Source: Acidobacteriota bacterium
GTDB lineage: Bacteria > Acidobacteriota > Vicinamibacteria > Marinacidobacterales > Marinacidobacteraceae
Assembly (NCBI GenBank): GCA_022820545.1
Contig: JAJEFG010000084.1
Span: 1-64,000, forward strand
DNA length: 64,000 bases
Reading direction: 5' to 3'
The notes below the pieces were generated by a model. It worked only from the letters and a program-made list of their open reading frames with translations. It was not told the DNA's origin and ran no database searches. The translations under genes were made by a program, and so were the position numbers. Positions 32,813 through 38,405 of this stretch are shown here, piece after piece. Position 1 is the first letter of the stretch. Each line of letters opens with the position of its first letter.

Positions 32813-34192
32813 TCAGGAATCCGGCTCCGCGGGGCTCCGCGTCAGTTCCTTGACGAAGCGCCACCCAAGGAACCCGCCGATCACCCCGGCGAGGCTGCTT
32901 CCGGCGGCGTAGGCGTAGACGACGCCCGGCCCCTCCAGCGAGTACAGGATCGCCCGCCCGCCCAGGGTCCCCACGAGCAGAAACAGCATCGCGGGGACGG
33001 CCAGGCCCGCCCGCGACCAGTTGAGCACCGTGGCCCAGATGGGGCGGCCCAGGTTGTTGAACGCCGCGGTCGCCACGTAGGCGGCGCCCGCGAGGACGAA
33101 TCCCCCCGCCCCCAGCCGGCAGAAGGCCCGGACGATGCTGGCGCCGTCGCCGGCCATCCCGAACGCCCAGACGATGAGGTCGGCCGCGAGCCAGAGGACT
33201 CCCCACGCCGCCAGCGCGTAGAGGACGGCGAACACGAGGCTGTCGCGATAGGTCGCCTCCAGCCGGTGCAGCTTCCGGGCGCCGTAGTTCTGGCCGAAGA
33301 TGCCGCCCACCGCCACGGCGAGCGCGATGATGCCCGAGAAACCGAGGACCACCATTCGGGTCACCACCGACCACCCGGCGACGGCGCTGTCGCCGAAACG
33401 CCCGACCCAGGCGGCCAGGAGCAGGAAACCGGACGGCGTGGACAGTTGGGCCAGCACTGCCGGTCCGGCCACCGCGAAGATGGCGCGGAAGTCGTGGAAC
33501 GTCTCCGCCAGCCGGAGCGGGGCGGCCAGTTCGTGGGTCCGCACCACGAAGTGAAGTCCCACGAGCGCGGTCACGATCCGCGAGAAGACGAGCACGCCGG
33601 CCGCGCCGTCCACGCCGAGCCCCAGACCCAGGATCACCAGCGGATCGAGCACGAACGCGACGCCGCCGGCGACCATGGTCACGATGAGGGCCCGCCGGGC
33701 GTCGCCTTCGGCGCGGAGGATGGCGGCCGTGCTGATGCCGAGTCCCAGGACCGGAAGCGACGGCAGGATCCAGGCCAGGTAGCGGCTCGCGACCTCGGTC
33801 GCCGGCCCGGGCTCCATCAGCAGTTCGACCGCCTCCTCGCGGAAGAGGAAGACCAGCGCGGCGAGCGCCGTGAGGGTCAGGAACGAGACCGTCAGGCAGG
33901 AGGTGGTTCGGCTGCGCGCCAGCGCGCGGTCGCGCGCCCCGAGCGCCCGGCTGACGAGGGCGGTGGCGGCCACGGCCAGACCGATGGCCACCGCGCTCAC
34001 GATGTGCTGGACGAACGAGGCGAGTCCGACCCCGGCAACCAGCCGCACGTCGCGGAGCAGCGAGATGTAGAAGAGCGTGAGGAAGTCCACCAGGAACAGG
34101 AAGAGGAACCCGACGGAGGCGGTCGTGGTCATGACGACCACGTGGCGCATCGTCGAGCCGGTGGTGAACCGGCCCTCCCTGTCCGGGGGCAT
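32813..34192 (-). CDS. MATE-family multidrug/small-molecule exporter
   Basis: The protein has 459 residues and about 12 membrane helices in two homologous halves. Marks are SRALGARDRALARS in the first half and GGIFGQNYGARKLHRLEATYRDSL in the second, at the same relative place, as in NorM/DinF-type proteins. It exports cationic or other small molecules by Na+ or H+ antiport. It is the last gene of a tight five-gene operon, 9 bp after the phosphotransferase gene. It could export a product or toxic intermediate of the enzymes upstream. Confidence 0.9.
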   Translation of the reverse strand: MPPDREGRFTTGSTMRHVVVMTTTASVGFLFLFLVDFLTLFYISLLRDVRLVAGVGLASFVQHIVSAVAIGLAVAATALVSRALGARDRALARSRTTSCLTVSFLTLTALAALVFLFREEAVELLMEPGPATEVASRYLAWILPSLPVLGLGISTAAILRAEGDARRALIVTMVAGGVAFVLDPLVILGLGLGVDGAAGVLVFSRIVTALVGLHFVVRTHELAAPLRLAETFHDFRAIFAVAGPAVLAQLSTPSGFLLLAAWVGRFGDSAVAGWSVVTRMVVLGFSGIIALAVAVGGIFGQNYGARKLHRLEATYRDSLVFAVLYALAAWGVLWLAADLIVWAFGMAGDGASIVRAFCRLGAGGFVLAGAAYVATAAFNNLGRPIWATVLNWSRAGLAVPAMLFLLVGTLGGRAILYSLEGPGVVYAYAAGSSLAGVIGGFLGWRFVKELTRSPAEPDS

Positions 34193-34201
34193 CGGATCCG
34201 C

Positions 34202-35365
34202 TCAGGCGAAGGCCCGGTAGGCGCGGTACCCGGCCCGGCAGAGGGCGTGCCGGAGGCCGGCCCGGCTCGCGAACGGCGGGACCTCGGGCAGAACGGCCCC
34301 GGCGTCCAGGTCCCGGAGCGCCGCCGCCGTCCGGGTTGCGATGACGTCCCGCAGTTCCAACTGCCGTCCCCGGTTCTCTCCCAGCCAACCGGCGACCACG
34401 ACGGGCAGCACCAGGCAACCGAGGAGGGTTTCCCGGTAGAGCCGCCAGCAGCGCTCGAACGGGAACTCCCGGGCGCCGAGGCTGCAAACGATGTCGTGGT
34501 ACTCGAGGAGCGCGTCCTTCTCGACGGCGCGGCGGACTTCCGGCGCGACGCTTCCCGCGAGGAAGTAGGCCACGTCGTAGAGGCCGTTCGCGACCGCGCT
34601 GTTCTGCCAGTCCACCACCGTGAGGCCGTCCCCATCGAAGAACATGTTGTCGAGACGGTAGTCGCCGTGCACGAAGGTCAGCGGTTCCTCCACGAGTTGG
34701 CCGAGATGGTCCACCAGCCGCAGGCCGTACTCCTCCGCCAGGTCCCGGACCTCCTCGGGCCACGAGCCGCAAAGGAGGGACAGGCTGCGCGGCAGGCCCA
34801 GCAGGTAGGAGACCTGCAGAGCCGACCAGACCCAGGGCGCCAGCATCTCACGGAAAACTGCGGGTAGCTGCTCGACGCGGTCCCAGTATCTCCCGTGGAG
34901 TCCGGCTACCTCCCGCACCGCCCGCCGCGCCTGCTCGGGAGTGGCGCCCCGCACCTGGTCCCCCGCCGTCAGGTTGCCGAGATCCTCGAGAACGAGCACG
35001 AAACCGTGCGTGCGGGCGTCGAAGTCGCCGTAGAGGAGCGCCGGAGCCCGGAGCGGGGATGCGGGCGCCAGGTGGCGATAGAAGCTGGATTCGCGGCGGT
35101 AGAGACGCCACCGCCGGCCGAGTTTTCGATTCCTCGGCTTGTCGCTCGCGAGCTTCACGACCACGCTCTCGGAGGGTCCGTCAGCGGCGGCGAAGGTCAG
35201 TTCGCAGCGGAGGATCTCCGCCATCAGCCCGACCCCCTCTCCGATGGCCTCGCACTTCAGCTCACGGACCGGTGGACAGCCGGCCCGGCCGCCGGCCACC
35301 AGGGCCTCGTGCAGCCACTCGGCCGTCAGGCCCTCGCCCGTGTCGGGAATCCCGGGACCCGCCAT
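34202..35365 (-). CDS. Choline/aminoglycoside kinase-like phosphotransferase
   Basis: The protein has 387 residues and a protein-kinase-like small-molecule kinase fold. An N-lobe ends in ESVVVKLASDK (ATP lysine) and GFVLVLEDLGN (hinge). The catalytic loop is FVHGDYRLDNMFF, with the Asp and Asn of Brenner's motif, and VVDWQNS is the metal-binding Asp. It resembles the ecdysteroid-kinase-like/EcKL group of the phosphotransferase family. The substrate is probably a hydroxylated small molecule, not a protein. ATG 35365 is chosen from homology of MAGPGIPDTGEGLTAEWL; the frame stays open upstream but only inside the next gene. Confidence 0.85.
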   Translation of the reverse strand: MAGPGIPDTGEGLTAEWLHEALVAGGRAGCPPVRELKCEAIGEGVGLMAEILRCELTFAAADGPSESVVVKLASDKPRNRKLGRRWRLYRRESSFYRHLAPASPLRAPALLYGDFDARTHGFVLVLEDLGNLTAGDQVRGATPEQARRAVREVAGLHGRYWDRVEQLPAVFREMLAPWVWSALQVSYLLGLPRSLSLLCGSWPEEVRDLAEEYGLRLVDHLGQLVEEPLTFVHGDYRLDNMFFDGDGLTVVDWQNSAVANGLYDVAYFLAGSVAPEVRRAVEKDALLEYHDIVCSLGAREFPFERCWRLYRETLLGCLVLPVVVAGWLGENRGRQLELRDVIATRTAAALRDLDAGAVLPEVPPFASRAGLRHALCRAGYRAYRAFA

Positions 35366-35379
35366 CGCGCCGTGAGGCC

Positions 35380-35838
35380 TTACTCCGCCTCGTACTCTTC
35401 GGCGCGGTGCATGTCGAAGTCCCCGTGAACCGGGTTTGGCGGAAAACGGCGGAACTCGGCGTGGCAGCGGTAGCAGACCGTGACGCTTCCCAGGCGGCGG
35501 TAGATCAGGAAGTCGAGGAGCGCCACCGACGCGAAGACGATGAACGCGCCGGGGAAGTCCCAGAGCGCGTAGGCGATGGTGGACAGGGCGATCGCGCTCA
35601 GCACCACCGCGCACCCGATCTGTTGCGGGACGTCCTTCTTCCGGTAGAACTCGGGGTTTCCGCACTGCGGACAGGAGGCGAAGGCGGCGCCGGCCGAGAG
35701 ACCCTCGGCGGCGGCGGGCGGATTCCGGTGGCCGCAGTGCCGGCACCGGTCGTCATCCGGCTGGAAGGGAGGGTTCCAGGTCGAATAGCGGTCGCAGGCG
35801 TCGCAGTAGAACCCGACCTCGGGCGCCCGTTTGGCCAA
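35380..35838 (-). CDS. Zinc-ribbon membrane protein
   Basis: The protein has 152 residues. The N-terminal part has Cys12-x2-Cys15 and Cys32-x2-Cys35, a rubredoxin-like zinc ribbon, and a further Cys56-x2-Cys59. Two adjacent hydrophobic segments follow (about 74-110, IGCAVVLSAIALSTIAYAL and AFIVFASVALLDFLIY). A last pair (VCYRCHAEFRRF) then faces the same side as the N terminus and could complete a second ribbon. I do not recognise a named family. It sits third in the five-gene operon, 14 bp from each neighbour. It could be a scaffold or regulator of the enzymes beside it. Confidence 0.8.
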   Translation of the reverse strand: MAKRAPEVGFYCDACDRYSTWNPPFQPDDDRCRHCGHRNPPAAAEGLSAGAAFASCPQCGNPEFYRKKDVPQQIGCAVVLSAIALSTIAYALWDFPGAFIVFASVALLDFLIYRRLGSVTVCYRCHAEFRRFPPNPVHGDFDMHRAEEYEAE

Positions 35839-35852
35839 ACCCGGCTGCCGTA

Positions 35853-37178
35853 TCAGGCGCAGCGAGAGACGATGGCCTCGAGCGCGGAGGAGATTTCTTC
35901 CCGGGTGTTGAAGAAGTGGATCGAGAGGCGGAAGTCGCGCTCGCCGCGGACCGGTGACGCCAGGATGCCGTCCTCCCCGGCGAGGTCCCGGTAGAGCGTT
36001 CCCGGGTCACACCCCTCCGGCAGCCGGACCACCAGGATGCCCGAGCGGTCCGCCGGGTCCTCCGGCGAAGCGACCTGAAGTCCCGGGGTCTCCCGGACCG
36101 CCTCGATTCCATGGTCCACCAGCGCACGGGTCCGGTTGAGGATCCGCCCGAAGCCGATGTCCTCCATCCACTGCACGGCCTGCCCGAAGCCGAAGAAGTC
36201 GGCGAGCGCCCGGGTGCCGAACTCGTAGCGCGCCGCGCTCGGGAGGAGCGTGTAGTTGCCCTCGTAGTCCATGGTCTCGTGGCTGTGCGCTCCCGCCCAG
36301 CTCAACTGCACGTCGTCGAGCAGCGCGCGGCGGACGAAGAGCGCTCCCGTGCCCTTGGGCCCGAGCAGCCACTTGTGCCCGCAGGTCGAATAGCAGTCGC
36401 ATCCCAGGGCGGCGAAATCGGTCGGCACGCAGCCCGGACCCTGGGCGCCGTCGAGGTGGTAGCGGACGCCCCGGGCCCGGAGAAGCTCGGCGAGCCGCGC
36501 GGAGTCCTCGGTGCGGAGCGTCCGGCCGTTGTTCCTGGAAACGTGGCTCAGGCTGACCATCCGCGTCCTCGCCGAGAGTTGGCGCTCCACCTCCGCGACG
36601 AGGTCGGTGCCCGGACTCAGGTCGATCTCCCGGATCGCGATTCCGAACCGGTCCCGCAGCACGTACCAGGGGATGACGTTCGCCGGATGTTCGGTGTTCG
36701 AGATGATGACCTCGTCGCCGGAACGCCAGTCAAGACTCCAGGCGACGATGGAGATCCCCTCCGAGGTGGAATGCGTGAGCGCCACCTCGTCTTCGCCGGC
36801 GCCGAACACCCGGGCGAGCTGGGCGCGGAGGTCCGGCTCGATCCGGCCCATCACCCCGGCGACCTGGGTGGCGGCCGGGCTGCGGTTCTGAAAGGTCAAC
36901 CGGTCCGCCAGCTGCTCGATCACCGGCGTCGGCGAGGGCCCGATCCCGCCGGTCTGGAAGTAGGGGCTCGCCGTGGCCGCCGGCACCGCTTCGCGGGCCT
37001 TCCGGACCCAGTCGGGAAGGTCTTCGGCGCCCGCGGGGGTCCCCGGCTCCCCCGCGGCGAGACGGCCCACGGGTACCAGGGGTAGGAGGGCCAGACCGGG
37101 AATGCCGGCCAGGAGCTGCCGGCGGCCGAAACCAGGAGCGCGGACGGTGGCCGGAGGAGCGTTCTCGGGTTTCATCAC
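35853..37178 (-). CDS. Tat-exported class V aminotransferase-fold PLP enzyme
   Basis: The protein has 441 residues. The N terminus has a twin-arginine signal (FGRRQLLAGIPGLALLPLVPVGRLAAG). The rest is a class V aminotransferase/cysteine desulfurase fold: HSTSEGISIVAWSL, ISNTEHPANVIPWYVLRDR, YHLDGAQGPGCVPTDFAALGCDCYSTCGHKWLLGPKGTG with the PLP Lys in GHKW, and FGTRALADFFGFGQAVQWM. Closest by eye are isopenicillin-N-epimerase-like and EgtE-like C-S lyase proteins. Export by Tat fits a protein that folds around its cofactor in the cytoplasm. The substrate is unknown. It lies 10 bp after a multi-pass membrane protein gene. Confidence 0.88.
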   Translation of the reverse strand: MMKPENAPPATVRAPGFGRRQLLAGIPGLALLPLVPVGRLAAGEPGTPAGAEDLPDWVRKAREAVPAATASPYFQTGGIGPSPTPVIEQLADRLTFQNRSPAATQVAGVMGRIEPDLRAQLARVFGAGEDEVALTHSTSEGISIVAWSLDWRSGDEVIISNTEHPANVIPWYVLRDRFGIAIREIDLSPGTDLVAEVERQLSARTRMVSLSHVSRNNGRTLRTEDSARLAELLRARGVRYHLDGAQGPGCVPTDFAALGCDCYSTCGHKWLLGPKGTGALFVRRALLDDVQLSWAGAHSHETMDYEGNYTLLPSAARYEFGTRALADFFGFGQAVQWMEDIGFGRILNRTRALVDHGIEAVRETPGLQVASPEDPADRSGILVVRLPEGCDPGTLYRDLAGEDGILASPVRGERDFRLSIHFFNTREEISSALEAIVSRCA

Positions 37179-37188
37179 ATTCTCCGCG

Positions 37189-37953
37189 TCAGACCAATCG
37201 CCCGCCGGTCACCACCTCGAGGAAGGCCGCGGTGAGTTCGCCGAACAGAACCAGGATGAGCGCTACGTAGAGTAATCCCGTTGCCGACTGCGTCGAGCGG
37301 ATGCGCACGGTATTCCGGATCATGAGGGCCAGGAAGGCCGGGAAGAGCAGGCCGGTCAGGACCCGGAATCCGAAGAAGAGGGCCGGAGTCGAGTAGATGA
37401 CGTCGGAGAGGCCCCCGAGGCGAAGCTCGGCGATTCCCCCGTAGAGGAGCGCAAACACGGCGACCCCGATGCGAAGCGCGGTGGCGCCGGTGACGAGGCT
37501 CGATCCCACCGAGAGCGGCCGGATGGAGAGCGCGGTGTCCACGAGGTACCAGTGGCCCAGCAGCATCGTGGCCGCGACGCCGCCCAGGAGGGCGGCGCCC
37601 GAGAGGCTCGAGGCGAGGGCCAATCCCGGCAGCTCCGGGGCCGTGAGAGGCGGCAGCAGGGCGCCGAGGAGGCCGATCCCCGCCATGCCGGCGGCGAGCG
37701 CCCCGCGCCGGCCGCCGAAGCGCGGGACGGCGAAGGCGAGGACGATGGCTCCGGCCAGCAGCAGCGCCCAGAAAGGGGCTTCGGGACGGCTCCGTCCCGC
37801 GAGCAGTCCGAGCGCCATCGCCGCTGCCGCGCCCCGTGCCACGAGGCGGAGATACCCCTCCGGCACCCGATGGACACCGTGGATGATTCCGGCGGCCAGC
37901 AGGCTTCCCGCCGCCAGGCGGGCGGTCAGAACGGCGACGGTGGCGCCGATCAC
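37189..37953 (-). CDS. Multi-pass membrane protein of unknown function
   Basis: The protein has 254 residues, starts at GTG and has about eight hydrophobic helices. The phrase LLGHWYLVDTALSIRPL in the middle has a His-Trp-Tyr and an Asp within the membrane, which hints at a functional site rather than a pure anchor. FFGFRVLTGLLFPAFLALM and SATGLLYVALILVLFGELTAAFLEVV follow. I do not recognise a named family. It is the first gene of the five-gene operon. It might be a membrane partner of the exported PLP enzyme. Confidence 0.75.
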   Translation of the reverse strand: MIGATVAVLTARLAAGSLLAAGIIHGVHRVPEGYLRLVARGAAAAMALGLLAGRSRPEAPFWALLLAGAIVLAFAVPRFGGRRGALAAGMAGIGLLGALLPPLTAPELPGLALASSLSGAALLGGVAATMLLGHWYLVDTALSIRPLSVGSSLVTGATALRIGVAVFALLYGGIAELRLGGLSDVIYSTPALFFGFRVLTGLLFPAFLALMIRNTVRIRSTQSATGLLYVALILVLFGELTAAFLEVVTGGRLV

Positions 37954-38081: not shown

Positions 38082-38405
38082 CTAGACCTGGAAGGACTCC
38101 CCGCAGCCGCAACTCGAGACGGCGTTCGGGTTGTTGAAGCGGAACCCCGCTCCCATGAGGTCCTCGACGTAGTCGATCTCGGTCCCCTCCAGGTAGGGCA
38201 GACTGCGCTCGTCGATGAGCATTCGGACACCGTTCTTTTCGATGACCTGGTCTCCGGCGCGGGACTCATCGTCAAGCGCCAGTTGATACTGGAAGCCGGA
38301 GCACCCGCCGCCCACCACGCGAACCCGGAGCAGGGCGTTCGGACGTTTGTGCTGCACGAGGAACTCGGCGACCTTGGTGGCGGCGACATCGGTCAAGCTG
38401 AGCAT
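38082..38405 (-). CDS. erpA: Iron-sulfur cluster insertion protein (ErpA/IscA family)
   Basis: The protein has 107 residues, the full length of A-type carriers. The three cluster cysteines are present in GGGCSGFQYQL and SSCGCGESF near the end. LSLTDVAATKVAEFL and NPNAVSSCGCG match ErpA/HesB/IscA. It passes 4Fe-4S clusters to apo-proteins. A good Shine-Dalgarno AAGGAG precedes the ATG. A TAGAAT -10-like box lies about 55 bp upstream on the same strand (38459-38464). Client candidates in this window include QueG and KorAB. Confidence 0.92.
   Translation of the reverse strand: MLSLTDVAATKVAEFLVQHKRPNALLRVRVVGGGCSGFQYQLALDDESRAGDQVIEKNGVRMLIDERSLPYLEGTEIDYVEDLMGAGFRFNNPNAVSSCGCGESFQV

Follow-up and report, generated by a model that had tools for sequence, protein, structure and literature searches.

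Five tightly packed genes around a Tat-exported class V PLP enzyme in an acidobacterium: one pathway or a mosaic of modules?

Do five bacterial genes that lie head to tail, almost without spacing, belong to one pathway? The question is raised by a 64,000-nucleotide stretch of DNA from an Acidobacteriota bacterium (the window; contig 76 of a 3.46-Mb draft genome that is 92% complete), whose nearest public relatives are titled Acidobacteria MAGs, several presumably sponge-derived (partly judged from isolate names). The original prediction, made from the letters alone, described here a membrane protein, a Tat-exported class V aminotransferase, a zinc-ribbon membrane protein, a kinase-like enzyme and a MATE exporter, and proposed that together they make, modify or detoxify a small molecule. 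The layout was found as described: on the minus strand, genes A to E pack into 32813-37953 with all five reading frames open and gaps of 9-14 bp (A-B, 10; B-C, 14; C-D, 14; D-E, 9 bp). Profiles, predicted helices and the Tat signal also bear out the list of parts and their compartments. A starts with GTG, B with GTG or ATG, and C with TTG, so the starts of these three genes may be off by a few codons. A scan of the five-gene region revealed neither a sigma-70-like promoter nor an intrinsic terminator, which is weakly informative in this GC-rich phylum.

The order A-B-C-D-E recurs in five genomes of the same genus (G003 to G007), and in another (G001) it is present but split by a contig end; with this recurrence, the order exceeds chance. 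The contig of one further genome of the genus (G002) stops just after A, and the set is kept in every same-genus genome whose contig permits the check. It is therefore genus-wide and not a peculiarity of one genome. The flanks are equally collinear in the same genomes, with a GHMP-type gene, a PHP gene and an IscA/ErpA-type Fe-S protein gene (38082-38405, minus strand) upstream of A and a Clp ATPase gene downstream of E, so that a conserved order in the genus does not single out A-E. Gene calls in the compared loci come from a simple ORF method, and the compared genomes are drafts. In G007 the MATE ortholog (C43, 33607-34974) has an in-frame TGA, possibly a sequencing error or a truncation, and the match covers residues 1-456.

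Outside the genus the set breaks up. The genomes G025 and G026, from the two sister genera, both carry B and C without D and E; G026 has A-B-C, and G025 has B and C together with A in opposite orientation. In a sister family (f2), A adjoins C, the IscA and PHP genes lie upstream in the order IscA-A-C, and B is absent. Among the 193 genomes of the class, A occurs in 78 and C in 73. C is accompanied by A in all cases (73 of 73; C without A, 0 genomes), and the Fisher p for this co-occurrence is 9e-48 with relatedness ignored. About 46 genomes from seven other families have A and C as neighbours and no B (counted from the A and C tables), and in one family (f6) A and C are both present, mostly on separate contigs. 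B is found in 9 of the 193 class genomes, all of them Marinacidobacteraceae, and A is missing in 22 of 24 B-bearing genomes searched outside this family. D at high identity is confined to the genus, with homologs at 40-48% in another family. E has orthologs only in the genus (93-97%); within the order none was found outside it, the next best match being 28%.

This distribution bears directly on the proposal that all five genes serve a single pathway for making, modifying and exporting a small molecule. Close packing and conservation across the genus would fit such a pathway, but the flanks are just as collinear in the genus, and the finding of A-C without B, of B outside the family mostly without A, and of sister genera without D and E leaves this part of the original prediction unsupported. 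One conserved five-gene pathway is rejected because its modules occur separately in other genomes, and we consider a common pathway of the five improbable. Our own reading, to which we give about an even chance, is that the five genes make up one mosaic transcription unit, put together from three modules, namely A+C, a C-DES-like exported B, and D+E. The first would be an ancestral pair that travels through Acidobacteriota beside genes for Fe-S assembly and respiratory cofactors. The second, B, is shared with Gemmatimonadota and would probably have arrived by horizontal transfer and settled between A and C in an ancestor of the Marinacidobacteraceae, and the third would be a later, genus-specific pair of kinase and exporter. 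The case illustrates that tight spacing and genus-level conservation alone do not make a pathway.

Gene B (35853-37178, minus strand), the best-defined part of the set, encodes a 441-aa class V (fold type I) PLP enzyme, which matches PF00266 Aminotran_5 at 170 bits (cut-off 21.5). Orthologs at 49-93% identity were collected from 57 loci in Acidobacteriota, Gemmatimonadota, Rhodothermales, Opitutales, Bacteroidetes and Marinimicrobia; about 50 of them, at 50-72% identity in Gemmatimonadota, Rhodothermales, Opitutales and Marinimicrobia, are nearly always without A. The N terminus contains GRRQLLAG followed by a hydrophobic segment (22-40), and the twin-arginine motif RRx(F/L/I/M/V) is present in 55 of the 57 loci, the remaining two genes being truncated. 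By these sequences, the predicted twin-arginine signal is real and conserved.

What reaction could such an exported enzyme carry out? In 37 aligned orthologs, the PLP lysine K269, D243, R417 (the arginine for the substrate carboxylate) and H421 are invariant, and the RxGHHCA loop, which holds the catalytic cysteine of desulfurases (PMC8300815), is absent from all 37, with (A/T/G/S)SPV and no cysteine in its place. Against PDB, the best profile match of B is C-DES (1elq), the L-cysteine/L-cystine C-S lyase of Synechocystis, at 173.6 bits, higher than every SufS entry. The B model also superposes best on C-DES, with TM-scores of 0.77-0.78 / 0.88-0.89 at 2.6-2.7 Å, and gives about 0.74 / 0.80 with SufS. 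C-DES (1elq, 1n2t, 1n31) has the same class V type I fold and PLP lysine and is likewise without the GHHCA loop and a conserved catalytic cysteine (PMC8300815); it prefers cystine as substrate (PMC6424863). The closest solved relative and the missing cysteine together suggest a C-DES-like C-S beta-elimination for B. Of the two arginines that we take to be in the C-DES active site, R369 has its equivalent in the invariant R417, and R360 is replaced by an invariant serine, S408, so the specificity of B probably differs from that of C-DES. B also differs in its Tat signal, and the identity between the two is 24-25%.

From sequence and model, B is a putative exported amino-acid enzyme and most likely a C-S beta-lyase, the latter assignment being a tentative one to which we give a little less than an even chance. 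The enzyme would load PLP in the cytoplasm, leave it in folded form and act on an alpha-amino acid outside, where it would cleave cystine or another S-substituted cysteine into pyruvate, ammonia and (per)sulfide. Extracytoplasmic cysteine is likely to occur as cystine, which makes an exported C-S lyase chemically plausible.

Two other exported roles can be judged by the same comparisons. B shares superfamily and fold with SufS/CsdA and has an IscA gene upstream of its operon, so it might be an exported cysteine desulfurase that supplies sulfur to the adjacent Fe-S genes. The missing RxGHHCA cysteine and scores far under the curated cut-offs (152.9 against 475.1 for TIGR01979) reject SufS identity; moreover, B is exported whereas IscA is cytoplasmic, and most B loci have no adjacent Fe-S gene, which makes this role scarcely credible. 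PvdN (5i90), which acts in pyoverdine maturation, is described in NCBIfam as a periplasmic class V enzyme, and B resembles it as an exported PLP enzyme of similar fold with a profile match of 108 bits. A PvdN-like tailoring of an exported peptide or siderophore is nevertheless very unlikely for B, since its 77.7 bits are far under the NF051467 equivalog cut-off of 650, which rules out membership, and its genomic setting is a different one; next to B, a non-systematic reading of the loci showed neither NRPS nor siderophore genes. In a literature search for Tat-exported class V enzymes, no description of the B family was found.

The neighbours of B outside the Marinacidobacteraceae offer a further line of evidence. 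There B adjoins genes for an APC permease, an NCS2-type permease and an SDF-family symporter, and nearby lie an exported alanine racemase (passing the TIGR00492 cut-off), an exported asparaginase-type enzyme, a BKACE enzyme and S15, S9 and M29 peptidases. The permeases, racemase and peptidases are as compatible with general amino-acid use as with sulfur chemistry. Class V also includes epimerases such as CefD, and B might be an exported racemase/epimerase or aminotransferase that prepares amino acids (e.g. D-amino acids, of peptidoglycan or diet) for uptake. In Gemmatimonadota, the APC permease, SDF symporter, alanine racemase, asparaginase-type enzyme, X-Pro dipeptidyl peptidase and M29 peptidase beside B argue for such a role, but profile and fold both place B nearest to the C-S lyase/desulfurase branch in a comparison made without CefD, and we regard it as possible, though rather unlikely.

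Several details of these loci were recorded. In Palauibacter-type Gemmatimonadota (eight loci), an APC permease gene is followed by B, with a BKACE enzyme, a 3-hydroxyacyl-CoA dehydrogenase-like protein and a Tat-exported alanine racemase near, which suggests an unnamed amino-acid degradation locus. Recurrent insertions just downstream of B in Gemmatimonadota (14 loci) consist of short VapC/antitoxin-like gene pairs, recognised by eye, and of genes for DUF4143 AAA proteins. Four B loci come from contigs titled Gammaproteobacteria; their neighbours are the same as in BD2-11/Gemmatimonadota loci, so these titles or bins may be wrong.

As for the origin of B, its patchy distribution in the class and its place in the tree suggest horizontal transfer: the Marinacidobacteraceae sequences stand beside those of Gemmatimonadota, and another acidobacterial B (L084) is on a distant branch, in a quick tree with some forks open. 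A bolder version of the C-S lyase reading, which we consider a long shot, is that B founds an extracytoplasmic cyst(e)ine C-S lyase family making (per)sulfide, which the present sponge- and marine-associated acidobacterial family would have recruited into the operon of a new redox module (IscA, A and C) on account of shared sulfur/redox chemistry. Extracytoplasmic PLP enzymes are few, and the B family is Tat-exported, conserved from Acidobacteriota to Marinimicrobia and close to the cystine lyase C-DES. It makes exported amino-acid or sulfur chemistry of uncultured marine and sponge bacteria directly testable by way of a single purified protein.

A and C offer another lead, independent of B: both are unnamed membrane proteins, and they are inherited jointly in nearly all cases. 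A (37189-37953, minus strand; 254 aa), with the invariant motifs GHWYL and STQSATGxLYV, lies outside every Pfam and NCBIfam family, and sequence searches of Pfam, NCBIfam and PDB gave no match. Its structure model consists of eight long helices (pTM 0.85), and each of the top eleven fold matches in PDB is a subunit of cytochrome bd or of alternative complex III (prob 0.95-1.00, best E only 1.9e-3). NrfD-like subunits are quinone-binding proteins with 8-10 helices in two four-helix bundles (PMC8076601). By its eight predicted helices and best fold matches, A may resemble these subunits, ActC/ActF of alternative complex III and the cytochrome bd subunits, but it is shorter, has no detectable sequence similarity to them and has no catalytic-subunit neighbour. 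A would most likely act as a small membrane subunit that interacts with quinone or is redox-coupled.

C (35380-35838, minus strand; 152 aa) reaches no family in profile searches of Pfam and NCBIfam. It has two hydrophobic segments and four CxxC pairs, whose eight cysteines are all invariant and can be arranged as a zinc ribbon at the N terminus (C12/C15/C32/C35) and another (C56/C59...C122/C125) that is split by a hydrophobic hairpin. We also considered C as a c-type cytochrome because of its CYRCH motif; this was rejected, since its histidine varies (L120 has CYRCF) and the C56/C59 pair goes better with C122/C125. C would serve A as a cytoplasmic zinc-ribbon (or rubredoxin-like) partner.

In other classes of Acidobacteriota, A was found in 42 of 247 sampled genomes, and it adjoins C again in one Marinimicrobia genome. 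The neighbours of A include, on the Fe-S side, IscA, a 2Fe-2S ferredoxin domain, a NifU-like scaffold and an Mrp-type Fe-S ATPase, and on the respiratory and cofactor side NuoB, a Rieske protein, NadA, a CofH/MqnC-like radical SAM protein and MoaA- and MoeA-type proteins, as well as an Fe/Mn superoxide dismutase. Besides the window, twelve loci show A-C as an unnamed co-inherited pair by Fe-S, molybdenum-cofactor, menaquinone-type and respiratory genes.

The last two genes are specific to the genus at this place. D (34202-35365, minus strand; 387 aa) is an EcKL/APH-type phosphotransferase that passes the cut-offs of both EcKL (60.5 bits; cut-off 22) and APH (58.9; 23.2), while it reaches only 12.8 bits with the choline kinase model, under the cut-off; HGDYRLDN and VVDWQ were read from the sequence as its kinase motifs. 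E (32813-34192, minus strand; 459 aa) is a MATE-family exporter, which matches MatE at 132.8 bits (cut-off 24.9) and stays under the stricter TIGR00797 (122.4; cut-off 147.4). D is like those EcKL/APH kinases that are paired with drug-type exporters, as homologs of it have MFS exporters beside them or close by; D-E differs from these pairs in that the exporter here is a MATE. For example, in G160 and G161 an MFS exporter gene comes after the D homolog. With D homologs by MFS exporters in three other genomes, the kinase-plus-exporter idea of the original prediction gains some support, which does not extend to the whole five-gene pathway. In four other genomes the D homologs lack an adjacent exporter, which weighs against a link to efflux. 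On these profiles, D-E is likely a kinase-efflux pair that modifies and expels a xenobiotic or secondary metabolite. The D homologs of G160 and G161 lie about 4 kb from A-C, and this link was deemed coincidental because other D homologs lie elsewhere.

A further D homolog (44% identity) was seen in the same-genus genome G002 (L222, 795-7804), together with a P450, an MFS exporter and two flavin amine-oxidase-like proteins, a locus that resembles a small secondary-metabolite or detoxification cluster.
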